Source: an uncultured Bacilli bacterium (lineage in GTDB: Bacteria; Bacillota_I; Bacilli_A; RF39; UBA660). Taken from it: 38,569 nucleotides of DNA. A model generated the notes under the pieces. The model made no database searches. It was not told where the DNA came from and worked only from the letters and a program-made list of their open reading frames with translations. Of the stretch, positions 1,028-38,341 are shown one piece after another. Position numbers and translations under genes: made by a program. The DNA is taken from positions 1 to 38,569 of the forward strand of contig CALVSW010000012.1 of assembly GCA_944359625.1 (NCBI GenBank), in the 5' to 3' direction. Position 1 is the stretch's first letter. Every line of letters starts with the position of its first letter.

Positions 1028-3641
1028 AAATATTTTCATTTCTAATTGTTTCAATAGTATTTTGTTTATTTATTTTATTCATTGAATACTTCATAATTAT
1101 AAATATTAAGATAAATACTGTAATTACAGCGATTAAAATAGCTATAACTGGCATTTTATAAGGTAAGCCTGAATCTAAAGTTAAATAATGATGTATTAGA
1201 TAAGATAAAATAAGGCCGATTGGAATACCAAATACTAATGATTTAATACCCATAAATATACTTTCTAAACTAATCATTCTACTAAATTCTTTTTTAGTCA
1301 TACCAATAGATTTTAACATAGCAAATTCTTGACGTCTTAATTCCATATTAGTAGTTATTGTATTAAAGATATTAGTAATACCTATTAAAGATATAACTAT
1401 TATAAAACCATATAAGAAAATACCTATTAAAGTAAATAAATTATTCATCATATTAACTGATTCTTCAATATTATTTACAGCATAATCAACACCAGTTAAT
1501 GCTTCATCAATATCATCTTGTAATTTATTAGCATTACTTGAATCATAATAAATATTAATTACTTTAGAACTATATATTTTATTAAATAAGTCATCACTAA
1601 TTAATAAGGCATTATTAACATTTTTTAAACCAAATGGTTTATTTTCTGTTACTTTAAATATTTCAATATTAAAATTAGAATCATCAGTTAAAGTTCCACT
1701 AATCATATCATGATCTTTAAATTTATAAACATGTAAGTATTTACTTTCAAATTTATTATCTTCTTCATTATATCTTGATACACTAGAATAATCTAATAAT
1801 ATAGCTTTATCTTTTATACTATTATAATCTAGTCCAAGAGATTCAATAAACTTCTTATATTGATAATCACCAATACTAATAATACTTATATAACTATTTA
1901 TTGTCGAATTTAAATCTAAATTTATCCAATCAATATATTCTTGATTATAATAAGTATTACTAAATTTTAATTCTGATTCTCTTAAGATTGTATAATTTAA
2001 AATATTATCTAAACTTGTAGTTGCTATTAATTTTTGATATTCTTCTTCATTATAATCGGTTGCTGTTAAAGATAAATTATAATCACTTATATTAAGTTCT
2101 CGCTCGATGCTATCAAAAGCTATGCTCATAAAACTTGTTAGAGCAATAAAGACAGATACGGATACTATTATAGATATAACTGTTGTACGATACTTCTTTT
2201 TATTTCTTTTTAAATTTTTATAAGATATATCCCCACCTACTCCAAATAATTTATTTATAATTTTAGGAGATTTTACTTTTTTAGAATTTATCTTAATAGT
2301 ACTACTATTTCTTATCGAATCAATTGGGGATATCCTAGATGCTTTTTTTGCACTTTTAAATGCTGATGCATAAATTGTTACTATTCCTAAGATAATAGCA
2401 AATATTATAGCAATAAAGGAAAAAGAAAATATTAATTTAATATCAGAAGCCATAAGATCTCCTAGATAATAGTTACTTACGATAATTAAGATATAAGATG
2501 CTAAGATACCTGCTAATATACCTAAAGGAATACCTATAAGTCCTAAGATAGATGCTTCATAAAAAACATTATGTTTTATTTGTTTTTTAGTAGCCCCAAT
2601 ACTTCTTAACATTCCATATTGTTTAATTTTTTCGGTTATAGATATATCAAAACTATTTTTAATACAAAATACGGATGTTACTACTATAATAGCCATAACA
2701 ATACCTACAACTATGCCTAAACCACCAATACCACTACTTTTTATTGGATTAGTTTCTAAATCTATTAAATAGTCATTAATATTTATATCATATTTAGTCT
2801 TTGCTATTTGATCAGTATATTTATTAAATTCTTCTTCACTCATTGATTCTCCAGAATAATATTTAGTAAATAATACTTCATCTACACCAATAATATTTGC
2901 TGTTACTTCATATGCTCTTTTTACACCATCTTTATTATATTTAGCATATATATCTACTATATCACTTAAATTATTTTCATCATAATAAGTTATAAATGTA
3001 TAACCAGGAGCAGTATAACCTTCAATATTAGTAGCCGGTCTTTCAATAATACCTACAACTTTATAAGTTTTAGAAGTAGTATTTACAATTTTTTCACTAG
3101 CTGTTCCATCATCATTAGTATATAAAGGATTAATTTGATTTAATTCGTAACCTTCATTATCTACTCTTGTACCTACATCTAAAGTAATAACATCCCCAAC
3201 ATTTAAAGTAATTCTTCCATTTGTTTTTAAATGCGTTGGTATTAATATTTCATTACTATTTTCTGGTAATCTTCCTTCAACTAACTTTATCGATAAGTTG
3301 TTTAAAGAACTTTTAGTAAATGCTTTTATATAAGCATATGGTTTATACTCATTTTTAGAATCTATTTTAGCATAACCAATATTTTCAACTAAGTTTAATG
3401 TATCAATACTACGATTATTTTTAAAAGTATCTATTTCTTCTTGAGGTACATTATAATAGGCAACATGAAAATCTCCTTTTTCCCTAATTTCAAAATTTAT
3501 TAAAGATTTAATAGCACTATTATACATTGTAGCTACAGCCGTAATTAAAGATACTGATAACATAATACCAATAATAGTAACTATTGTTCTTTTTTTATTT
3601 AATTTTAAATTTTTTATCGTTAATTTATTAAGTAAGCTCAT
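1026..3641 (-). CDS. ABC transporter permease, FtsX/MacB type
   Basis: Inner-membrane permease of 871 residues, the partner of the ATPase encoded two bases upstream. There is an N-terminal membrane helix (about 17-42), a large extracytoplasmic MacB-core-like domain (about 45-290), an FtsX block with three or four helices (about 300-440), a second helix (about 485-510) with another extracytoplasmic region, and a C-terminal FtsX block (about 745-860). The motif around IGATKKQIKHNVFYEA, repeated as IGMTKKEFSRMISLES, is typical of FtsX cores. This double-FtsX design is common in Firmicutes exporters and antimicrobial-peptide resistance transporters (family knowledge). Its substrate cannot be told. 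Its ribosome site GGAGG lies inside the last codons of the ATPase, so the two are translationally linked. Confidence 0.9.
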   Translation of the reverse strand: MSLLNKLTIKNLKLNKKRTIVTIIGIMLSVSLITAVATMYNSAIKSLINFEIREKGDFHVAYYNVPQEEIDTFKNNRSIDTLNLVENIGYAKIDSKNEYKPYAYIKAFTKSSLNNLSIKLVEGRLPENSNEILIPTHLKTNGRITLNVGDVITLDVGTRVDNEGYELNQINPLYTNDDGTASEKIVNTTSKTYKVVGIIERPATNIEGYTAPGYTFITYYDENNLSDIVDIYAKYNKDGVKRAYEVTANIIGVDEVLFTKYYSGESMSEEEFNKYTDQIAKTKYDININDYLIDLETNPIKSSGIGGLGIVVGIVMAIIVVTSVFCIKNSFDISITEKIKQYGMLRSIGATKKQIKHNVFYEASILGLIGIPLGILAGILASYILIIVSNYYLGDLMASDIKLIFSFSFIAIIFAIILGIVTIYASAFKSAKKASRISPIDSIRNSSTIKINSKKVKSPKIINKLFGVGGDISYKNLKRNKKKYRTTVISIIVSVSVFIALTSFMSIAFDSIERELNISDYNLSLTATDYNEEEYQKLIATTSLDNILNYTILRESELKFSNTYYNQEYIDWINLDLNSTINSYISIISIGDYQYKKFIESLGLDYNSIKDKAILLDYSSVSRYNEEDNKFESKYLHVYKFKDHDMISGTLTDDSNFNIEIFKVTENKPFGLKNVNNALLISDDLFNKIYSSKVINIYYDSSNANKLQDDIDEALTGVDYAVNNIEESVNMMNNLFTLIGIFLYGFIIVISLIGITNIFNTITTNMELRRQEFAMLKSIGMTKKEFSRMISLESIFMGIKSLVFGIPIGLILSYLIHHYLTLDSGLPYKMPVIAILIAVITVFILIFIIMKYSMNKINKQNTIETIRNENI

Positions 3642-25560: not shown

Positions 25561-25588
25561 TAAAAAAAATAAGTTTATAAAAACTTAT
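25561..25588 (-). terminator. Terminator of the natAB-thioredoxin operon
   Basis: Minus-strand arms 25588-25581 (ATAAGTTT) and 25576-25569 (AAACTTAT) with a four-base loop, then seven or eight T. The stem contains the stop codon of the thioredoxin gene (25587-25585). Confidence 0.88.
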
Positions 25589-26136
25589 CTTAAATAATAT
25601 AAATCAAGGAAAGCTTTAATTACTTCTTCACTTGTAGCACCATTAAATGTATGGGTTACTTTACCATTTTCTATTATATAAGTAACTGGGGTTCCCGCAA
25701 AATAAATGTAATCATACATATTACGAATTTCATCATCAGAAAAATCGGTAACATCGATTGAATAAGCTTTTATATCATAACTTTCTAAAGCATTTTTAAA
25801 TAAAGGTTTAAAACTTTCACAAGCATCACAACCAGTTTTATCTAAAAATAAGATACTTCTTTTACTACTTTTAAATAAATCTTTAAAACCATCAAAATCA
25901 AGTTCTGTTATTGTGCCATTAGTATCTGGCAACTTATCAGTATTAACTTCGATATTAGGTGTAGGTTGCTCTAATTTATCTATATATTGAGCACTTGATT
26001 CTACATAATCCATATCAGTTTGTACAACATCTATTGTATCTCCATTATTTTTAAAGAAATAATAAATACCATAACAAACTATTCCTATCATTAAAACACT
26101 TAAAATTATAACTAAAATTGCTTTTTTATTTTTCAT
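25585..26136 (-). CDS. Membrane-anchored thioredoxin-like protein (CDAC)
   Basis: A 183-residue protein with an N-terminal membrane helix (about 6-28), an acidic linker, then a thioredoxin-fold domain (about 78-183). The active site is C-D-A-C (LFLDKTGCDACESFKPLF) and the cis-Pro loop is GTPVTYI. It should act outside the membrane on disulfides. It starts two bases after an ABC-2 permease gene, so it belongs to that operon. It is a second extracytoplasmic thioredoxin in this window, distinct from the CPWC one at 7980-8591. Confidence 0.85.
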   Translation of the reverse strand: MKNKKAILVIILSVLMIGIVCYGIYYFFKNNGDTIDVVQTDMDYVESSAQYIDKLEQPTPNIEVNTDKLPDTNGTITELDFDGFKDLFKSSKRSILFLDKTGCDACESFKPLFKNALESYDIKAYSIDVTDFSDDEIRNMYDYIYFAGTPVTYIIENGKVTHTFNGATSEEVIKAFLDLYYLR

Positions 26137-28375: not shown

Positions 28376-28397
28376 AAAAAAGCGTTTTTAATCGCTT
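28376..28397 (-). terminator. Terminator of giant gene A
   Basis: Minus-strand arms 28397-28393 (AAGCG) and 28384-28380 (CGCTT), then five or six T. The stem starts inside the 3' end of the gene, whose stop is at 28390-28388. Confidence 0.75.
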
Positions 28398-31300
28398 TTA
28401 TCATTATCGGTATTATCATTTACTACTACACAGCCATAACTTTCCAGTTCATTTAAGAACACTGAATCATATTTTTTTAATGTAAAATCATTAAATCCTA
28501 AATCAGATGCTTCTTGCTGAGCATTATATTCTCTAATTCTAGCAGCACATGTTGGATCTAATATTAAGCTATATTCTGGTTCTTCAGAATAAATACTTTC
28601 TCCTTTTTCCTCTATTTCGGAGATAACTGTATCTATTTCTAAACCATCAGATGTAGCACCAATCCAATTGAACCCACGGCTTTCATCATCATTAGGGAAT
28701 AAATTATTAAGAGATACAACTTTTGAAAAGAATTCTAGTTTATTATCAATACTACTAGCATTATTAACATAGTTATTTCCAGAACTAATTCCACCTGATG
28801 GCGAACCTCCTACACTTGATGAAAAACTTCCATCAATTACACCTGTACCACTACAGCAGAAATTCTTTCCACATGCAGCATTATATTGATCAATCGTATT
28901 TTGGGAAATAACCATTTTTCCTAAGGCCTCAACATAACTACAACAATTATCATTTAATAACTGAGTTATACAATCATCTAAAGTAGCATCATTACTACAG
29001 GTTTGACTAGAATATATTGATTGGCAATTAGCACCTTCATTTGGCGTATTACCGCCATCCTCTTCTTCTCCTGTTTCCGTTTCCTCAGTTGGTGGTGTTG
29101 TTGGATCATCCTCACAATTTGGATCATCTACAGCACAAACACTATAATCGCATAAATAATCATTTTTCTCATATCCAGTTATAGAACCAATCGCACTATT
29201 GATAAAGTTATCGACTATTCCTATACCAGTAGATACTTCAATAGTTGGCAATATAGAAACATATCCACTAGATCCTAGTACACGCCCATACTGGGTTTCA
29301 TTTGGAAAATACTGACCTACATTTTCAAAAGTTAATTTATATAAATAATCCCCTGGTCGTGTTGTTAACTTTATCGGATATACTAATCCATCTGTATCAA
29401 TTAACTCACTATCTTCCGTCATTGGAGTTAATGATACTATTCCTTTATCTGGAGTAGTGAAAAACGAATATTTCGGCTTATAATAAATAAATGCTTTATT
29501 AGAGAATATTCTTATTGCTTCTTGTAAAAACAAACTAAATACGGTTTCTAAATTAACGCCACCAGTTAATCCAACACCAGGATATCCATACATAGCTATG
29601 CTTGCTAAACGCCGGATGTAAAAGTAAAAATCATCAGGATTCAAATTAACGTACGATTTATCAGATATAACACCTAAATCAAATAATGAAACAGCTGTTG
29701 AAATTATATTTGCTGAATTAGATATTTCTACATCTTTTTTTTCAATACCAAAAATTGATGATTCAACACCAGAAATTATTGATGATACTAAACCATCCAA
29801 AAGACTATTTCCAGTAGATGGTGCGTTAATACCAGGTTTGCATTCAGTATACATATTATCTACTTCAGTCATTTCATTACAATATAAATTGTAGCTAAAT
29901 GGATATTCTGGTTCATTATCAATTTCTAATTGTGTATCATTAAGAATCATATTTATATATTCTTGTTCATCATAGTCAAAATCTAATTCAACTTGATATT
30001 CATAGTTTTTTCCACTATTCCATCTTGTACAATCTTTAATATAATCAGTTTTTTCAATTAATAAATCCCTTGTATCATTATAATTTTTAGCATTAGATAT
30101 AACGGATGCAACCACTTTAGCAATTCCTAGTGCTAGTTGAATATTTTTTGCTTGTTCTGGAGGAATATTTGACCCGTGACATGTAAATACGGCTGTACAT
30201 TTTACAGTTTCAGCTGCGCCACCGCCAGTAATTATTGTAGCAATAACTCCTCCTACACTTACAGCTGCTTTTACAGTTTCTAAATAAGGTTGATCTCCGC
30301 TAGGAATTGTGCCTGAATCTAAATCTAAAAATTGATTTATAATGCTTTCAAATAAATTTGGATTCTCTTCGCCTTCTATTTTTCCAATAAAACTTGCATT
30401 GTTTGATGAATTTCCTGTTTTTTTCTCTTCAGATTTAACAATATTTGCTGCAATTACATCTTTTTCTTCTTCATCTTGATACTCAAATTCATATTGCTCA
30501 TATTCAAAATCATAATTATATTCAGCAACATAACCATATGGACGTTTTGATGATGGGGGAAGTGCTAAGCAGACTCCTTGTGCAATGTTTGCTGTTGCAG
30601 AAATTACATCCATGCTATCACATCCTGGTGGTACAACCCTAACATTATTTTTATATTTTTGAACATTTTCTGGTGTCAATAACCATTTTAACATTCCTAT
30701 ATAATAATAATATCTATTTAGATAAGTTAACATATTATTTTTTAAAATTGTTGCGTCTTCGATATATTGATCTACTAATATTTCACTAGTTACACAAGAT
30801 TTTTGGGTTGCTACTCCTGCTATAGTATGGGTATACCCATCTAAGTTAACAGGAATATATCTTCCTTGACTGAAATCTCCTAATCCTCCAGGTAAACGGA
30901 AAGCAAAATCTTCTTTACAAGCTATCTTACAATAATCATTTTCAACGACATTATAATCATTACCAGCTGGATCTTGTTTATCAATAACACAATTATCCCA
31001 GTCAACTGCCATTGTATTAAGATTAACTCCTTCAACAATATAATTAGTATTAGAAGTTGGTAGGCAAAGAAATGACTGAAATGTAAAACATTTTGCTTCT
31101 TCACCACAAGTCTCAGAAGTAGGGCTTTCTGCCTCAGCTCCTAAACGAACTTTACCTTGTTTATTAAATATTAAAAATCTTTGATAATTATTTGCATCGT
31201 TAGCATTAGTAGCATGTACAATAAAAACATTAGAAATCGAGTAATCATCAGAATATTCGCCAGATACTTCAACTTTTATTTCACATATATTTTCATCAAA

Positions 31301-32998
31301 ATTATCATTAGATTTTATAGTAATTGTATTAGTCTTTTCACCATTAGAATTTTCCCAATTATTCAATCCTTCAACGGTAAACATTTCAGAGATATCTTGA
31401 CCAGCAGCATTTTTAATAACTACTTTTAAATTACTAATGTTTGATGTATCTTCAATATTACTAGCAGTAATAATAAACTTAATACCATCTTTTATTTCGT
31501 CGCCTTCACCTTTTTCAATTGAAAGTTTGGCTGATAAACTCTCTATATAATCTTTGTTAGTACTTGTTGCCTTTTCGACTACTTGATTATATATTTCGGC
31601 TGCTTTAGCAGGTGTAATACTTCCATTTAAGTATGCATTCAAATTAGAAGAATGATTTCCGGTTAAAAAGCCACCAGAATCTGTACTATAATTTTTAACT
31701 AAAAATCTAGCTACTTGAGTTGAAATAAACAAACCTTCATCAGTCTTATTTTTTATGTAATAATCAGTATATAAATAATATATTGCACGTCCAAATATTG
31801 TATCTAAGGCAAGTTCCGATTCAATTGTGTAATCTATATTATTTGGATTATCTCTAGCTGGATCTATACAAAATGCATCATATTCAGTTTCTTGATCATC
31901 TTCACATGCTGCTTTAGCAGTGTAAGCAATTAAATAATTCCCTGCTGGATGCTTATAACCTCCCCAATTATAATTAGTTGGATCATAAGAAGATGATAAT
32001 AACCTATTATTAGGCCTACGCATATCTATTTTTAAATTTTTACATACGCCACTTGCGGCATCGCCTTCAGCCATACTTCCATTATTTGCTGTACCACAAT
32101 TATCATCTATATCACAAACTTGAAAACTTCCAGCTGTACTACCAGCTGATGCGACTTGAAAATGCCACCATTCAGAAACAAGCGTTTCAAAACCAACACT
32201 TGTCATAATTGAACTTAAAGTATTGGCATTATCATTGTTATGATCTAATGTAGCACGCCAACTCAACTCGTGAATTGCAGATTGCATAGTTAATTCTTGA
32301 CCACCTTGTGTCAATGTTAGGTCTAACGCTACACCTAAATTATGTTTAGAAACGCCACGAGATAAAAAATAGCTTACACTCCATTTTTTTCCATTTGGAT
32401 CATTTAACATATCGTTCTTTACTGCTTGATTACTGTTAAGATACGCATTTAAAGTAGTATAAGTTTTTTGAGTAACTTCACTTGGACGATAAGCATCATA
32501 TATCTTTAACCCGTATCCTTTAGCAGCGGCAGCTAAAGCAGCAGTTTTAAATTTTTGGGCAACTGGATATAATAATGGTACTAAACTTGATGATTTATAA
32601 TATTTATTTCCAGTTATTCCAGGAATTGATTGACCATTTATTTTATAAATATTACCGCTACCATTTGTTATATTATAACTAACATTACCTACACCAGTTA
32701 AATAATCTGGTAAATTTACCAAACAAACGTTAGCATCAATATATCCCTCTTGTTCGTTAAAGTAAATAGCAAATTTACCATTAACAGGTTCTTTTTTTGC
32801 TGCAAATGCTTGACCATAAGTTGCTTCAATTGTTCCTAATGAATTACCTGATGCATCAGTAACGTCCACGTTAGTAATTGGCCATACTCGCATACTATAT
32901 TCGCTTGGAATTCCTTCAAATGCTTTTACACTATCGAATATGCATAGGGTAAAAAAGATTGTAAATATTAAAATAATTTTAATTATATTTTGTTTCAC
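28388..32998 (-). CDS. Giant secreted protein A: SH3-like, M15 peptidase, thioester-like domain
   Basis: About 1,536 residues with a signal peptide. The start is GTG at 32998, eight bases after GGAG. In order: an SH3-like segment (about 30-95); an M15 VanX/VanY-type peptidase (about 105-290) with all zinc/catalytic residues (Arg in DAYRP, H and D in KHNLGVALDL, E and H in EWWH); a thioester-domain-like region (about 320-460) with FCIDP and STQVARF 51 residues apart; an Ig-like stretch; then a long Cys-rich body shared with protein B. No LPXTG or C-terminal membrane helix, so surface retention is unexplained. The M15 part predicts peptidoglycan stem-peptide cleavage; the thioester part predicts covalent binding to a target (both inference). 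Confidence 0.8.
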   Translation of the reverse strand: MKQNIIKIILIFTIFFTLCIFDSVKAFEGIPSEYSMRVWPITNVDVTDASGNSLGTIEATYGQAFAAKKEPVNGKFAIYFNEQEGYIDANVCLVNLPDYLTGVGNVSYNITNGSGNIYKINGQSIPGITGNKYYKSSSLVPLLYPVAQKFKTAALAAAAKGYGLKIYDAYRPSEVTQKTYTTLNAYLNSNQAVKNDMLNDPNGKKWSVSYFLSRGVSKHNLGVALDLTLTQGGQELTMQSAIHELSWRATLDHNNDNANTLSSIMTSVGFETLVSEWWHFQVASAGSTAGSFQVCDIDDNCGTANNGSMAEGDAASGVCKNLKIDMRRPNNRLLSSSYDPTNYNWGGYKHPAGNYLIAYTAKAACEDDQETEYDAFCIDPARDNPNNIDYTIESELALDTIFGRAIYYLYTDYYIKNKTDEGLFISTQVARFLVKNYSTDSGGFLTGNHSSNLNAYLNGSITPAKAAEIYNQVVEKATSTNKDYIESLSAKLSIEKGEGDEIKDGIKFIITASNIEDTSNISNLKVVIKNAAGQDISEMFTVEGLNNWENSNGEKTNTITIKSNDNFDENICEIKVEVSGEYSDDYSISNVFIVHATNANDANNYQRFLIFNKQGKVRLGAEAESPTSETCGEEAKCFTFQSFLCLPTSNTNYIVEGVNLNTMAVDWDNCVIDKQDPAGNDYNVVENDYCKIACKEDFAFRLPGGLGDFSQGRYIPVNLDGYTHTIAGVATQKSCVTSEILVDQYIEDATILKNNMLTYLNRYYYYIGMLKWLLTPENVQKYKNNVRVVPPGCDSMDVISATANIAQGVCLALPPSSKRPYGYVAEYNYDFEYEQYEFEYQDEEEKDVIAANIVKSEEKKTGNSSNNASFIGKIEGEENPNLFESIINQFLDLDSGTIPSGDQPYLETVKAAVSVGGVIATIITGGGAAETVKCTAVFTCHGSNIPPEQAKNIQLALGIAKVVASVISNAKNYNDTRDLLIEKTDYIKDCTRWNSGKNYEYQVELDFDYDEQEYINMILNDTQLEIDNEPEYPFSYNLYCNEMTEVDNMYTECKPGINAPSTGNSLLDGLVSSIISGVESSIFGIEKKDVEISNSANIISTAVSLFDLGVISDKSYVNLNPDDFYFYIRRLASIAMYGYPGVGLTGGVNLETVFSLFLQEAIRIFSNKAFIYYKPKYSFFTTPDKGIVSLTPMTEDSELIDTDGLVYPIKLTTRPGDYLYKLTFENVGQYFPNETQYGRVLGSSGYVSILPTIEVSTGIGIVDNFINSAIGSITGYEKNDYLCDYSVCAVDDPNCEDDPTTPPTEETETGEEEDGGNTPNEGANCQSIYSSQTCSNDATLDDCITQLLNDNCCSYVEALGKMVISQNTIDQYNAACGKNFCCSGTGVIDGSFSSSVGGSPSGGISSGNNYVNNASSIDNKLEFFSKVVSLNNLFPNDDESRGFNWIGATSDGLEIDTVISEIEEKGESIYSEEPEYSLILDPTCAARIREYNAQQEASDLGFNDFTLKKYDSVFLNELESYGCVVVNDNTDNDKSD
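28409..29541. repeat. Near-identical segment 1, copy in gene A (partner 33133-34265)
   Basis: Offset 4,724 bases from the copy in gene B. Reading both copies in parallel I find one difference inside the block (28444 C versus 33168 T), with another at the boundary (29542). The flanking coding sequence is clearly diverged. This points to recent gene conversion. Confidence 0.85.
30756..31027. repeat. Identical 272-bp segment 2, copy in gene A (partner 35510-35781)
   Basis: I find no difference between the copies over 272 bases (offset 4,754), while sequence on both sides differs at many sites. It encodes the region from the TQKSCVTSEILVDQYIEDAT block back to DWDNCVIDKQDP. Confidence 0.85.
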
Positions 32999-33045
32999 TA
33001 AAACCACTCCAACTTCCAGTCAATAGTCTTTCTACTTTCATAATA

Positions 33046-33082: not shown

Positions 33083-33115
33083 AAAAAATCTTATCATTTT
33101 AAGATAAGATTTTTT
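33083..33115. terminator. Bidirectional terminator between giant genes A and B
   Basis: A perfect 13-bp stem, arms 33083-33095 and 33103-33115 with a seven-base loop, A/T-runs on both sides. It ends the operon that includes gene B, just before the promoter of gene A. Confidence 0.9.
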
Positions 33116-33120
33116 TATAT

Positions 33121-36100
33121 TTAATTATTATCAGTATTATCATTTACTACTACACAGCCATAACTTTTCAGTTCATTTAAGAACACTGAATCATATTTTT
33201 TTAATGTAAAATCATTAAATCCTAAATCAGATGCTTCTTGCTGAGCATTATATTCTCTAATTCTAGCAGCACATGTTGGATCTAATATTAAGCTATATTC
33301 TGGTTCTTCAGAATAAATACTTTCTCCTTTTTCCTCTATTTCGGAGATAACTGTATCTATTTCTAAACCATCAGATGTAGCACCAATCCAATTGAACCCA
33401 CGGCTTTCATCATCATTAGGGAATAAATTATTAAGAGATACAACTTTTGAAAAGAATTCTAGTTTATTATCAATACTACTAGCATTATTAACATAGTTAT
33501 TTCCAGAACTAATTCCACCTGATGGCGAACCTCCTACACTTGATGAAAAACTTCCATCAATTACACCTGTACCACTACAGCAGAAATTCTTTCCACATGC
33601 AGCATTATATTGATCAATCGTATTTTGGGAAATAACCATTTTTCCTAAGGCCTCAACATAACTACAACAATTATCATTTAATAACTGAGTTATACAATCA
33701 TCTAAAGTAGCATCATTACTACAGGTTTGACTAGAATATATTGATTGGCAATTAGCACCTTCATTTGGCGTATTACCGCCATCCTCTTCTTCTCCTGTTT
33801 CCGTTTCCTCAGTTGGTGGTGTTGTTGGATCATCCTCACAATTTGGATCATCTACAGCACAAACACTATAATCGCATAAATAATCATTTTTCTCATATCC
33901 AGTTATAGAACCAATCGCACTATTGATAAAGTTATCGACTATTCCTATACCAGTAGATACTTCAATAGTTGGCAATATAGAAACATATCCACTAGATCCT
34001 AGTACACGCCCATACTGGGTTTCATTTGGAAAATACTGACCTACATTTTCAAAAGTTAATTTATATAAATAATCCCCTGGTCGTGTTGTTAACTTTATCG
34101 GATATACTAATCCATCTGTATCAATTAACTCACTATCTTCCGTCATTGGAGTTAATGATACTATTCCTTTATCTGGAGTAGTGAAAAACGAATATTTCGG
34201 CTTATAATAAATAAATGCTTTATTAGAGAATATTCTTATTGCTTCTTGTAAAAACAAACTAAATATGGTTTCTAAATTAACGCCACCAGTTAATGGCACT
34301 CCTGTGTATCCATACATGGCAATACTTGCTAAACGCCGGATGTAGAAATAGAAATCATCTAAATTCAAGCTAACATACGAGTAATCATTTAAAATTCCGA
34401 GATTTAACGAGCCTAAATTTATGTTACTGAAATCTAATAATGATAAGCCTGCCGATATTATATCTATTTCATTAGGTACTTGAACATCCTTTTTATCTAT
34501 ACCAAAAACACTAGATTCTACTCCTGATATTATTGATGATACTAATCCATCTAAAAGACTATTACCTGTTGATGGTGCGTTAATACCAGGTTTACATTTA
34601 GTGTACATATTATCAACTTCAGTCATTTCATTACAATATAAATTATAACTAAATGGATACTCTGGTTCATTATCAATTTCTAATTGTGTATCATTAAGAA
34701 TCATATTTATATATTCTTGCTCATCATAATCAAAATCTAATTCAACTTGATATTCATAGTTTTTACCACTATTCCATCTTGTACAATCTTTGATATACCC
34801 GGTTTTTTCAACTAATGTTTCCCTAGTTTCATTATATTTTTGAGCAATTTCATAAGCTTTTTTTAATATACGGCCGAGGCCAACTAACCACTGAAGGTTC
34901 TTGACAGCATCATTAGGTTCAACTATTGACCCATGCCAAGTATAAATCATAAAGCATTTACCACCTGCGGCAGCTCCTTCAGTAAGAAGAACAACTAAAG
35001 GGCCCCATGTTCCCTCAGTTAAAGGTGGCATATTCGGAATTGTTAATTCATTTGATGGTACAGTAGCAGATTCATATTTAATATCTGTAAAATCAATATC
35101 TTCAGGCTTATTACCAGATTGACCACTTTTTGTATCTTCAGCTTTAATAACTTTAGCTTTAACAATGTCTAATTCCTCCCCATCTTCTGGTTCTTCAAAA
35201 ACATAGTAATCATAATCAAATTTATAATCGTACCTCTCTAAAAAATCGTGAACGTAGTCCGGTTTGGATGGTAGCTCTGTTAGACAAATTGCTTCAGCTG
35301 CTAAGGTTTCAATTGTAGAAATTAATCCTCTAAATTCAGATGGAAAGAAATCCCATGAAGATACATCTAATACTGGTGTAGCATATGCTGGTTTAACTTG
35401 AACATTATTTACGTATTCATCACGATTTTCAATTAAATATTTTGCTGCGCCAACATAATAATAAAACATATTTAAATAATTTAACATTTCCTTTTTTAAA
35501 TTAGTGGCATCTTCGATATATTGATCTACTAATATTTCACTAGTTACACAAGATTTTTGGGTTGCTACTCCTGCTATAGTATGGGTATACCCATCTAAGT
35601 TAACAGGAATATATCTTCCTTGACTGAAATCTCCTAATCCTCCAGGTAAACGGAAAGCAAAATCTTCTTTACAAGCTATCTTACAATAATCATTTTCAAC
35701 GACATTATAATCATTACCAGCTGGATCTTGTTTATCAATAACACAATTATCCCAGTCAACTGCCATTGTATTAAGATTAACACCTTCAATGATATAATTA
35801 GTATTAGAAGTTGGTAGGCAAAGGAATGACTGAAATGTAAAGCATTTTGCTTCTTCTTCTTGACCACATTCTGGATAAGCAGGAGTTTCTGCCTCAGCCC
35901 CTAATCTTACTTCACCTTGTTTATTAAATATTAAAAATCTTTGAAAATTAGCAGCATCATTCGCACTAGCGGCTTGAACAATAAATATATTAGAAATAGA
36001 ATAATCATCAGAATAATCTGCTGATACTTGTAACTTTATATTACATATTGCTTCATCATAAGTATCATTCGCTCTAACGGTTATAGTTGCTACACTATTA

Positions 36101-36888
36101 CCATCTGATGTTTGCCAATTATTTTGGCCACTAATCGTAAACATGCTAGATATATCTTGTCCAGCACCATTGACAACCGTGTATGAGATATTTTTTAAAT
36201 TAGATGGTTCAGTAACGTTATTCGCCGTTAAAGTAAACTCTATTCCTTCTCTAACATCTCCAGCACTATCTTCACCACCAGCTACTTCTAAATCTAATGT
36301 TGCTGTCATTCCTAAAATATCTTCTTCTGTGGTAGACATTGCTTTTGCTTCTACTTGATTAAATACTGCAGCTGCTTTTGATGGGGTAATTGAACTATTC
36401 ATATATGCTGTCAAACTGCTTTTATGACTACCATCTAGAAAACCAATGTATTTTTTTACTAAAAATCTCGAAACTTGAGTAGAAATAAATAAGCCTTCAT
36501 CTGTTTTATTATGTAAATAATAATCTGTATATAAATAATAAATGGCACGTCCAAATACTGTACTTAAATCAAGCTCTTCTGATATTTTAAAAGTCTCACC
36601 ATGGGGGTTATCTCTAGCTGGGTCTATACAAAAAGCATCATAAGTTGTGCTTTTATCATCTTGGCATGCAGCTTTAGCAGTATATGCAATTAAATAATAA
36701 CTTCCATTATGACTATATCCAGCCCATCTATAATTAGCACTATCGTAAGTAGCAGAATATAATTGATAGTTTCCTCTTAAATTAATACTTACATATTCAC
36801 AAACACCCTCAACAGCAAAAACATGATTAGAAGAAATAAAGCAAAATACAAATAACAATATTATAAAAATTTTATTCTTCTTTGACAT
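33121..36888 (-). CDS. Giant secreted protein B: thioester-like domain, paralogue of A
   Basis: A 1,255-residue secreted protein: signal peptide (ending near NHVFA), then directly the thioester-like region with FCIDP (Cys87) and STQVSRF (Gln138), again 51 residues apart, an Ig-like stretch, and the same Cys-rich body and C-terminus as protein A (…NELKSYGCVVVNDN). It lacks the SH3-like and M15 parts of A. A low-complexity linker (PTTPPTEETETGEEE) separates a final Cys-rich module. No wall-anchor motif is seen. Its start overlaps the upstream membrane protein gene by 17 bases, so the two are cotranslated. Function as a surface adhesin is inference. Confidence 0.8.
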   Translation of the reverse strand: MSKKNKIFIILLFVFCFISSNHVFAVEGVCEYVSINLRGNYQLYSATYDSANYRWAGYSHNGSYYLIAYTAKAACQDDKSTTYDAFCIDPARDNPHGETFKISEELDLSTVFGRAIYYLYTDYYLHNKTDEGLFISTQVSRFLVKKYIGFLDGSHKSSLTAYMNSSITPSKAAAVFNQVEAKAMSTTEEDILGMTATLDLEVAGGEDSAGDVREGIEFTLTANNVTEPSNLKNISYTVVNGAGQDISSMFTISGQNNWQTSDGNSVATITVRANDTYDEAICNIKLQVSADYSDDYSISNIFIVQAASANDAANFQRFLIFNKQGEVRLGAEAETPAYPECGQEEEAKCFTFQSFLCLPTSNTNYIIEGVNLNTMAVDWDNCVIDKQDPAGNDYNVVENDYCKIACKEDFAFRLPGGLGDFSQGRYIPVNLDGYTHTIAGVATQKSCVTSEILVDQYIEDATNLKKEMLNYLNMFYYYVGAAKYLIENRDEYVNNVQVKPAYATPVLDVSSWDFFPSEFRGLISTIETLAAEAICLTELPSKPDYVHDFLERYDYKFDYDYYVFEEPEDGEELDIVKAKVIKAEDTKSGQSGNKPEDIDFTDIKYESATVPSNELTIPNMPPLTEGTWGPLVVLLTEGAAAGGKCFMIYTWHGSIVEPNDAVKNLQWLVGLGRILKKAYEIAQKYNETRETLVEKTGYIKDCTRWNSGKNYEYQVELDFDYDEQEYINMILNDTQLEIDNEPEYPFSYNLYCNEMTEVDNMYTKCKPGINAPSTGNSLLDGLVSSIISGVESSVFGIDKKDVQVPNEIDIISAGLSLLDFSNINLGSLNLGILNDYSYVSLNLDDFYFYIRRLASIAMYGYTGVPLTGGVNLETIFSLFLQEAIRIFSNKAFIYYKPKYSFFTTPDKGIVSLTPMTEDSELIDTDGLVYPIKLTTRPGDYLYKLTFENVGQYFPNETQYGRVLGSSGYVSILPTIEVSTGIGIVDNFINSAIGSITGYEKNDYLCDYSVCAVDDPNCEDDPTTPPTEETETGEEEDGGNTPNEGANCQSIYSSQTCSNDATLDDCITQLLNDNCCSYVEALGKMVISQNTIDQYNAACGKNFCCSGTGVIDGSFSSSVGGSPSGGISSGNNYVNNASSIDNKLEFFSKVVSLNNLFPNDDESRGFNWIGATSDGLEIDTVISEIEEKGESIYSEEPEYSLILDPTCAARIREYNAQQEASDLGFNDFTLKKYDSVFLNELKSYGCVVVNDNTDNN
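33133..34265. repeat. Near-identical segment 1, copy in gene B
   Basis: Partner of 28409-29541 in gene A; see that entry. It encodes the last about 375 residues of both proteins. Confidence 0.85.
35510..35781. repeat. Identical segment 2, copy in gene B
   Basis: Partner of 30756-31027 in gene A; no differences seen in 272 bases. Confidence 0.85.
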
Positions 36889-37594
36889 CTTTTTTCTTAC
36901 TCCTTAATTCCATTTTGTCTTCCCCTTTTTGTTTCCAAATCTTAAATCCAACTATAAAGATAATTATTACAACAATTATTATTATTATTGAAACATAATA
37001 ATTTTTAAAAAAATCCAATATCTTATCAAAAAAATTTTTATCATTATTATTGATACCATCTTCTCGCTTAGCATAGGCATTAATACCAGCTAAAAATTCA
37101 CTTTCTGTAATTTCATCTAAAAATACAAATTTATTACAATAATAATAATCTGGATGCTCTAAACATTGAGGATAAGAACTATAAGGATTTAATCTAGGAA
37201 TTGTTACATGTAGGGTTCTTATTGGATCCTTATCGCATGCTGGTTCCACAGCTAATATATCAATACTATATTCTCTTATTTCATCAGTTAAACCAGTATC
37301 AATAGTGATAACATTATCTTCATTCGAATGAAAAGTTCCTAAATCTTCTACTTCTACATATAAATCACTAGTAATGTTATAAATATTAATTCTACCATAC
37401 CAATAAGACAAAGTTACGGTTTCTCCGAAACCTTCATCATAATATTCCTTAGTCTGTTCATATGTTTGATATTCCGACGTAACTAACCCTGCTAAATTGT
37501 TCAATCTAGCTTGTTCAGCATAATCACATTCAGCAAAAACTTTAGAACATCCTAATAAAAAGAAAGAAACTAAAAATATACAAATCTTTTTCAT
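36872..37594 (-). CDS. Bitopic membrane protein of the giant-protein operon
   Basis: A 240-residue protein that I do not recognise. It has a signal peptide (with FFLLGCSKVFAECDY, so a signal-peptidase I site after VFA is likelier than a lipobox), a beta-rich extracytoplasmic domain with several Cys, and one C-terminal membrane helix (about 195-217) followed by a strongly basic cytoplasmic tail. AGAGG precedes the ATG. It lies 15 bases after the pilin-like gene and overlaps giant gene B. It could hold or hand on the giant protein at the membrane (inference). Confidence 0.75.
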   Translation of the reverse strand: MKKICIFLVSFFLLGCSKVFAECDYAEQARLNNLAGLVTSEYQTYEQTKEYYDEGFGETVTLSYWYGRINIYNITSDLYVEVEDLGTFHSNEDNVITIDTGLTDEIREYSIDILAVEPACDKDPIRTLHVTIPRLNPYSSYPQCLEHPDYYYCNKFVFLDEITESEFLAGINAYAKREDGINNNDKNFFDKILDFFKNYYVSIIIIIVVIIIFIVGFKIWKQKGEDKMELRSKKKDVKEE

Positions 37595-37609: not shown

Positions 37610-38341
37610 TTAAGAACATGAAGATGTATTTGTAATAATATAAGCCTGGTTATTTTCAATAGCATGACTTAAAACAGAATTGCTTAACATATAATTCCTT
37701 AAATCATTCATATCATTATAACTACTACCTACAATCCCTGGAAATTGACTTACCATTGCTTGTCTAAAATTCATTTCTCCATCTTTATATTGCAATAGAT
37801 AATCTAGGCCATTAGAAGTAAGATAGTCATCATTTAACGTCTTAATATATGTTTTAAAACTTTCATTAAAGTGAATACAGCATATTGATTCCGTAGTTGT
37901 AGATGGCTGATTATTATTGCCCGTTCCACCACCACTAACACCACCAATTAAAATAACATCTAATTTATTAACAAGATCAAAAGAGTTGTTAGCAGTATTA
38001 GCAACATTTACCGAATTACTACTACTAGATATTTTTACACTTACCTTTGGAGGCAACTCATATATATCATAAAACTCTATATTAAATTTTTTTGAAATAG
38101 TAGTAGATTCAGCATAACGTCGTATAAAATTTTCTAAAAATTTATCTTCATTAATTTTAATATCACCATATAATCTGTAATACGAATAATCTAAAGCATC
38201 AACCATTGCCGATTGTGCTACTTCTTTAAGCATATAATAATCCTGTGTTGTTCCTGATGTAACACTATTAATTAACATCATTACTCCTATTATAAAAATA
38301 CCTAACAAAATTAACCAATAAGTCCAATAAGTTGCTTTCAC
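37610..38341 (-). CDS. Pilin/TadE-like membrane protein (DUF5411-like)
   Basis: A 243-residue protein starting at GTG (38341) behind AGAGGAGG. One N-terminal hydrophobic helix (about 6-28, no classic signal cleavage) is followed by a helical stretch (QDYYMLKEVAQSAMVDALDYSYYRLYGDIKI) and an extracytoplasmic domain with IYELPPKVSVKIS. This design resembles TadE-type pseudopilins and the DUF5411 proteins that I recall from related gut Firmicutes. It is the first gene of the operon with the bitopic protein and giant B, which suggests a shared surface assembly or secretion role (inference). Confidence 0.7.
   Translation of the reverse strand: MKATYWTYWLILLGIFIIGVMMLINSVTSGTTQDYYMLKEVAQSAMVDALDYSYYRLYGDIKINEDKFLENFIRRYAESTTISKKFNIEFYDIYELPPKVSVKISSSSNSVNVANTANNSFDLVNKLDVILIGGVSGGGTGNNNQPSTTTESICCIHFNESFKTYIKTLNDDYLTSNGLDYLLQYKDGEMNFRQAMVSQFPGIVGSSYNDMNDLRNYMLSNSVLSHAIENNQAYIITNTSSCS

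Follow-up and report, generated by a model that had tools for sequence, protein, structure and literature searches.

M15 peptidases of the VanX/DdpX type act on the D-amino-acid peptides found in peptidoglycan and do not cleave proteins. The thioester adhesins described so far are for the most part anchored by sortase and come from Gram-positive bacteria, many of which are pathogenic. In their thioester domains (TEDs) the bond-forming pair consists of a Cys in the motif [YFL]C-phi-zeta and a Gln in the motif phi-Q-zeta-phi-phi, and the Gln of a further motif, TQXX-phi-W, is not essential for the thioester bond (Miller et al., PMC6194298). Class II TEDs contain a beta-sandwich between the head and the Gln, with a Cys-Gln spacing of 171-204 in three solved structures (PMC6194298). 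Here we analysed a contig of 38,569 nucleotides from an uncultured Bacilli bacterium (CALVSW010000012.1 of assembly GCA_944359625.1; the whole contig is called the window) and describe protein A, which joins an SH3-like segment and an M15 peptidase domain to a region that looks like a Class II TED and is encoded at a Tad-like pilus locus.

Domains and candidate thioester residues of protein A

An earlier note on this DNA had placed an M15 peptidase and a thioester-like domain in one secreted protein at 31560-32998. Both parts were recovered, the first by Pfam (PF01427, E = 1.2e-14) and the second by profile alignment to TEDs. The interval lies inside protein A but spans only the N-terminal third of its gene. 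Start codon candidates are the GTG at 33007 and an in-frame GTG at 32998. The following features were assigned.

28388-33007, minus strand: protein A, 1,539 aa, with signal peptide, SH3-like segment, M15 peptidase, TED and a Cys-rich C-terminal region
32918-33007, minus strand: signal peptide, residues 1-30 (hydrophobic N-terminus)
32714-32890, minus strand: SH3-like segment, about residues 40-98 (alignment to SH3_3-positive relatives)
32141-32620, minus strand: M15 peptidase domain, residues 130-289 (PF01427; 1r44 VanX)
32321-32344, minus strand: M15 zinc ligands His222 and Asp229 (HNLGVALD), invariant in 19 aligned M15 domains
32162-32173, minus strand: M15 catalytic Glu279 and zinc ligand His282 (EWWH), conserved across the M15 alignment
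31133-32050, minus strand: Class II-like TED, about residues 320-625 (profiles, conservation, literature definition)
31868-31870, minus strand: Cys380 (FCIDP), candidate thioester Cys, an invariant column in 26 sequences
31715-31720, minus strand: Thr430-Gln431 (TQVARF), the TQXX-phi-W equivalent, not the bond-forming Gln
31181-31183, minus strand: Gln609 (YQRFL), candidate thioester Gln, the second invariant column, fitting phi-Q-zeta-phi-phi

The best PDB match of the M15 domain is VanX (1r44, E = 2.8e-9). Its active site is complete, with Arg174 (YDAYRP), His222, Asp229, Glu279 and His282 in the arrangement HxxxxxxD, ExxH and upstream Arg, as had been claimed for a VanX/VanY-type site. Residues of about 40-130 align to the SH3 domain and linker of relatives in which SH3_3 (PF08239) is found with E = 7.6e-13 and 1.4e-6. 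The SH3-like segment proposed earlier is upheld by this alignment, though a Pfam search of protein A itself detected no SH3. A role of the peptidase in self-processing during surface assembly, also suggested before, found no support given the peptidoglycan substrates of this enzyme type. Inspection of the sequence showed no LPXTG, and Pfam found no CnaB, ester or isopeptide stalk domains. Beyond the signal peptide no membrane segment is present, with one borderline case, a hydrophobic stretch around residue 914.

Assignment of the TED rests on profiles and on conserved residues. With the full-length protein Pfam gave TED_2 at E = 0.045, under the cut-off. TED_2 reached E = 0.005 with the isolated segment, and a homologue had a TED match at E = 0.0016, again under the Pfam cut-off (TED_2 scored 17.2 bits against a cut-off of 27). 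Among all Pfam families the top matches are both TED families (PF08341 and PF20610; best E 0.0016 and 0.0042), weak as they are. An hhalign comparison against 27 independent PF08341 domains of the class gave a probability of 92.6% with Cys aligned to Cys, and eleven unrelated control alignments stayed below 1%. When all 26 relatives were included the probability was 80%, dropping to 62% after removal of the six close ones; the sole scoring control in the 26-sequence comparison was bigM, whose match falls on an overlapping part of these proteins. A search of PDB sequences with the TED profiles returned no TED.

Six close homologues, drawn from three species, all keep Cys380 of FCIDP, Gln431 of STQVA and a number of other residues. 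When 26 relatives with 12-62% identity to protein A are aligned, no column except those of Cys380 and Gln609 is invariant; this invariance is partly circular because these relatives were chosen partly by their Cys/Gln motifs. Arg434, which adjoins the TQ pair, is nearly invariant in the same set and provides independent support since it played no part in choosing the sequences. The Cys motif reads FC380ID in protein A and ICID in one congener, and the Cys of FCIDP, put forward earlier as the thioester Cys, is retained as the candidate. The Gln of TQVA, put forward as its partner, is not. The sequence is TQVARF in protein A and TQVSR[FY] across the rest of the genus, failing the TQXX-phi-W pattern. 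The TQ pair is confined to this genus; distant members keep neither the Gln nor the Trp but do keep Cys380 and Gln609. Gln431 was therefore rejected as bond partner, both by the published definition (PMC6194298) and by its lack of conservation outside the genus, and we regard Gln609 as the bond-forming candidate. Conservation of the Cys/Gln pair, proposed earlier as a check, thus holds for Cys380 together with Gln609 but not for Gln431, which is invariant in close homologues only. Residues 320-460, the region suggested for structural testing, exclude Gln609 and would have missed the partner.

Two structure predictions were made, using three sequences (pLDDT 54 and 69). For the low-confidence model of the protein A segment the first PDB hit was the Class II TED of E. 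faecium, 6fwy (E 6.4e-4, TM 0.2), whereas the better model, of the corresponding segment of the paralogue protein B, matched immunoglobulin (Ig) folds only, with no solved TED in the top 50. The comparison with the TED fold that had been called for therefore gave a divided answer. The region between Cys and Gln is predicted to be all-beta and Ig-like, where the beta-sandwich insert is expected, and the head is poorly modelled; structure was not counted as support for the TED. Alternatively, one may read the region as an Ig-stalked binding domain lacking a thioester, and the M15 fusion as a recent neutral shuffle in one lineage. The TED scores under cut-off, the Ig matches of the better model and the occurrence of the fusion in a single genome agree with such a reading. 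Against it speak the two invariant columns, even in a partly motif-chosen set, the independently conserved Arg and the complete M15 active site, and we consider it quite improbable. Taken together, residues 320-625 look like a Class II TED in which Cys380 and Gln609 would form the thioester.

We also counted Cys...Gln pairs in the large protein encoded at the DUF5411 pilin locus across the family. A pair is present in 34/65 proteins against 5.8 expected from shuffles; the count uses simple motifs, includes possible chance positives (G012, G033, G118, G264) and omits several motif-negative proteins in which a TED-like Cys is nonetheless present. The motif pair is missing from about half of the large Tad-linked proteins, several of which start with a different, 'RITVVDENGN'-like head (L046, L195, L196, L202, L203, L205).

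Protein B and the origin of protein A

Upstream of protein A on the same strand lies the gene of its paralogue.

33121-36888, minus strand: protein B, 1,255 aa, with signal peptide, TED (Cys87, Gln316) and a C-terminal region as in protein A
28454-29533, minus strand: block of 1,080 bases in the gene of protein A with 100% DNA identity to 33178-34257 in that of protein B
33083-33116, minus strand: AT-rich hairpin (AAAAAATCTTATC / GATAAGATTTTTT) followed by a T-run between the two genes, terminator-like

Protein B had been described as keeping the thioester-like part only. It does have a TED and, by Pfam, no M15 domain, but it also shares the C-terminal region with protein A. The best interpretation of protein A is a tandem duplicate of protein B that carries an SH3-M15 head. 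The identical block sits near the 3' end, and the TED copies of the two proteins are about 70% identical. Such block identity within otherwise diverged genes suggests a recent gene conversion or duplication, and the mosaic of a 1,080-base identity beside a TED of about 70% identity points to gene conversion. The hairpin was read directly from the sequence, as the terminator scan demands three G-C pairs and missed it. Since hairpin and T-run lie between the two genes, the gene of protein A may have its own promoter and be transcribed separately.

An identical block of this length can mislead assemblers, so that protein A might be an artefact joining two neighbouring genes or two strains. The M15-TED junction, however, lies in unique sequence within one open frame, with roughly 1 kb between it and the closest near-identical block, and the TED of protein A differs from that of protein B by about 30%. 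An artefact is therefore hardly credible.

The Tad-like pilus locus and the recurrent SH3-M15 module

Proteins A and B are encoded at the end of a Tad-like pilus operon, and two further genes of the locus precede that of protein B.

36872-37594, minus strand: partner protein with signal peptide and C-terminal transmembrane helix, conserved in relatives immediately upstream of the large protein
37610-38341, minus strand: DUF5411 pilin-like protein (PF17424, E = 2.1e-50)

Of 291 genomes sampled from the bacterial family, 235 encode a DUF5411 protein. Gene order at the locus in two congeners is partner protein, large TED protein, DUF5411 pilin, two CpaB-like proteins and TadA ATPase, followed by two membrane proteins at the TadB/TadC positions, a second DUF5411 pilin and a second partner. 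One congener (G002) then has the orthologue of protein B, and the contig of the other (G001) stops within the second partner gene. The window starts at the second DUF5411 pilin, and another contig of this genome holds the locus up to the TadC-position gene and ends about 100 bases further; the two contigs therefore almost certainly abut. The TadA orthologue lies on the abutting contig; in a relative it matches TIGR03819 (4.7e-28) and also VirB11 and T2SSE. CpaB/RcpC matches (PF16976) range from E = 6.5e-4 to 1.4e-5, under the cut-off. Genes for a penicillin-binding protein transpeptidase and an MraY-type transferase adjoin the locus, so the organism has peptidoglycan genes.

M15 domains are infrequent in these bacteria. 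They scored over the cut-off in 25/291 family genomes and in 4/392 genomes of the phylum sample, where no other long open reading frame with M15 turned up. In 8 of the 25 M15-positive family genomes the domain is encoded inside the Tad-like operon, which makes up about 1-2% of the genome. Fusions of SH3-M15 to the DUF5411 pilin occur in seven genomes (six genera); in an eighth genome a different pilin-like protein carries the module. One of the seven (L134) has two tandem fusion pilins of DUF5411 and M15 (26-1723 and 1748-3337). Derivation of the M15 domain of protein A from a pilin-fused copy was rejected, as in the M15 tree it groups with stand-alone SH3-M15 proteins (95/92). Because it groups apart from the pilin-fused domains, the locus has probably recruited an SH3-M15 module at least twice. 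Neither this operon setting nor the pilin-borne modules had been mentioned in the earlier note. Its statement that no such architecture is known agrees with our searches: a second M15-TED fusion was found neither in the 291 family genomes nor in the 392 phylum genomes, nor in the open-licence literature searched. Viral contigs contained no relative, and a scan of genome contigs found one congener only. Stand-alone SH3-M15 genes (L043, L130, L132, L135) lie close to a conserved gene set that, judged by eye, resembles MBOAT/DltD-type genes of wall modification.

We propose that protein A is a pilus-linked adhesin of the covalent type with peptidoglycan-trimming activity, a reading that we hold to be evenly balanced between true and false and whose activity and target are predicted from sequence. 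Protein A would be an accessory surface protein of the Tad-like machine and be displayed by the pilus. The predicted role of its Class II-like TED (Cys380-Gln609) is to capture the target covalently through an amine, as SfbI and other TEDs do. The N-terminal SH3-M15 part is predicted to trim stem peptides of peptidoglycan where the machine crosses or touches the wall. Local wall remodelling for the pilus machine, most simply of the producer's own wall, is favoured, with attachment left to the TED. The reasons are that SH3-M15 also occurs on pilin-like subunits, which are put together at the envelope of the producer itself, and that peptidoglycan genes are present in the genome. The pairing of M15 and TED is probably functional, since relatives of both parts recur at the pilus locus.

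Against this proposal stand several observations. All TED matches are under the Pfam cut-off, Cys380 and Gln609 are 229 residues apart, more than the 171-204 found in solved Class II structures, and the better structural model yielded Ig folds only. In congener G002 the gene of protein B is directly followed by an ABC transporter gene without protein A, neither congener has any M15, and protein A is known from one metagenome-assembled genome. The proteins at the TadB/TadC positions match no family model, though order and size fit, and we identified no anchor or pilus-assembly signal in protein A.

Downstream of the Tad-like genes many relatives (L039 11895-16000; L046 3-2366; L047; L049) encode small membrane proteins of TrbC/VirB2 size, together with a large membrane protein that weakly matches T4SS_pilin and a transmembrane family of mycoplasma integrative and conjugative elements. 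A hybrid of Tad and type IV secretion system genes is possible in these relatives. The main rival to remodelling of the own wall, a contact weapon or mating aid in which the TED captures another bacterium covalently and M15 opens the wall of that cell, draws on these genes. It is also in line with TED adhesins in Gram-positive conjugation (PMC8092201), with peptidoglycan hydrolases as candidate adhesins in lactococcal conjugation (PMC11067333) and with the position of M15 N-terminal to the TED, which is usually the distal end of TED adhesins. Within the window, however, no immunity or DNA-processing gene was recognised, and the pilin-fused M15 domains of relatives are expected to lie close to the membrane and wall of the cell that makes them. 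We therefore consider this rival unlikely. Alternatively, the adhesin could tether wall fragments or neighbouring cells from which M15 frees D-Ala or muropeptides for uptake. For RF39, the order to which this genome probably belongs, gaps in the synthesis of peptidoglycan precursors and a dependence on muropeptides are predicted (PMC10868615), but scavenging leaves the placement of the module on pilin-like subunits unexplained and appears improbable.

Further features were noted at the locus and its counterparts. The large proteins contain 35 and 30 Cys, and an extracytoplasmic thioredoxin-like protein is encoded nearby (25585-26136 of the window), as it is beside the operon in L038 and L044; it may serve oxidative folding of the large proteins because these are Cys-rich. 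Many large Tad-linked proteins have GP[SA][WYM][KR] at or near the C-terminus (L038 3525-7034, L041 11664-16016, L127 9797-13006, L139, L180, L186, L207), a possible assembly or anchoring signal that is absent from proteins A and B. The first paralogue, on the abutting contig (L034 11962-16605), has a collagen-like stretch of the GSTGNTGST type ahead of the TED, so what precedes this domain varies. Elsewhere the same genome encodes a classical adhesin with TED and SpaA beside a sortase gene (L003 4000-5736 and 5726-6181), and both adhesin types coexist.

Comparison with known systems

The component families are known. The literature searched, which comprised open-licence papers only, contained neither their combination in protein A nor the Tad link nor the divergent TED group. 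Tentatively, and at somewhat less than even confidence, we extend the proposal to a family of small-genome uncultured Bacilli whose Tad-like machine would present slipknot thioester adhesins of a divergent TED group, with a conserved Arg replacing TQXX-phi-W, and would repeatedly arm its own subunits with SH3-M15, here on the covalent adhesin itself. If true, a Tad-linked TED group in a large uncultured lineage would add a further kind of surface machine to those with covalent adhesion, and the repeated fusion of SH3-M15 to machine subunits is a testable claim on pili that pass or act on the Gram-positive wall.

Among described proteins the Class II TED adhesins (BaTIE, SaTIE, EfmTIE86 and the conjugation adhesin TIE-pLS20) share with protein A the [YFL]C-phi-zeta Cys near the start, the phi-Q-zeta-phi-phi Gln past an all-beta stretch and the build of a large secreted multidomain protein. 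Protein A differs from them by its N-terminal M15 domain, by the lack of LPXTG and of a detected CnaB or isopeptide stalk, by a helix bearing a conserved Arg where TQXX-phi-W would be, by its longer Cys-Gln spacing and by its location in a Tad-like operon rather than a sortase locus. All catalytic and zinc-binding residues are held in common with the VanX/DdpX dipeptidases and carboxypeptidases of the M15 family; unlike these, protein A is a secreted fusion that also contains SH3-like and TED domains. VanX accepts only the free dipeptide.

Tad/Flp pilus loci have in common with the present locus a TadA-type ATPase, CpaB/RcpC-like proteins, several pilin-like proteins and two membrane proteins at the TadB/TadC positions. 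A secretin is not expected in a Gram-positive Tad locus. Peculiar to the present locus are the DUF5411 pilin, the very large secreted protein headed by a TED and TadB/TadC counterparts unrecognised by family models. Linkage of a thioester adhesin to a pilus is shared with the streptococcal pilus-tip adhesins Cpa (PMC8092201), which, in contrast to protein A, belong to a sortase-built pilus and carry a Class I TED and no peptidase.
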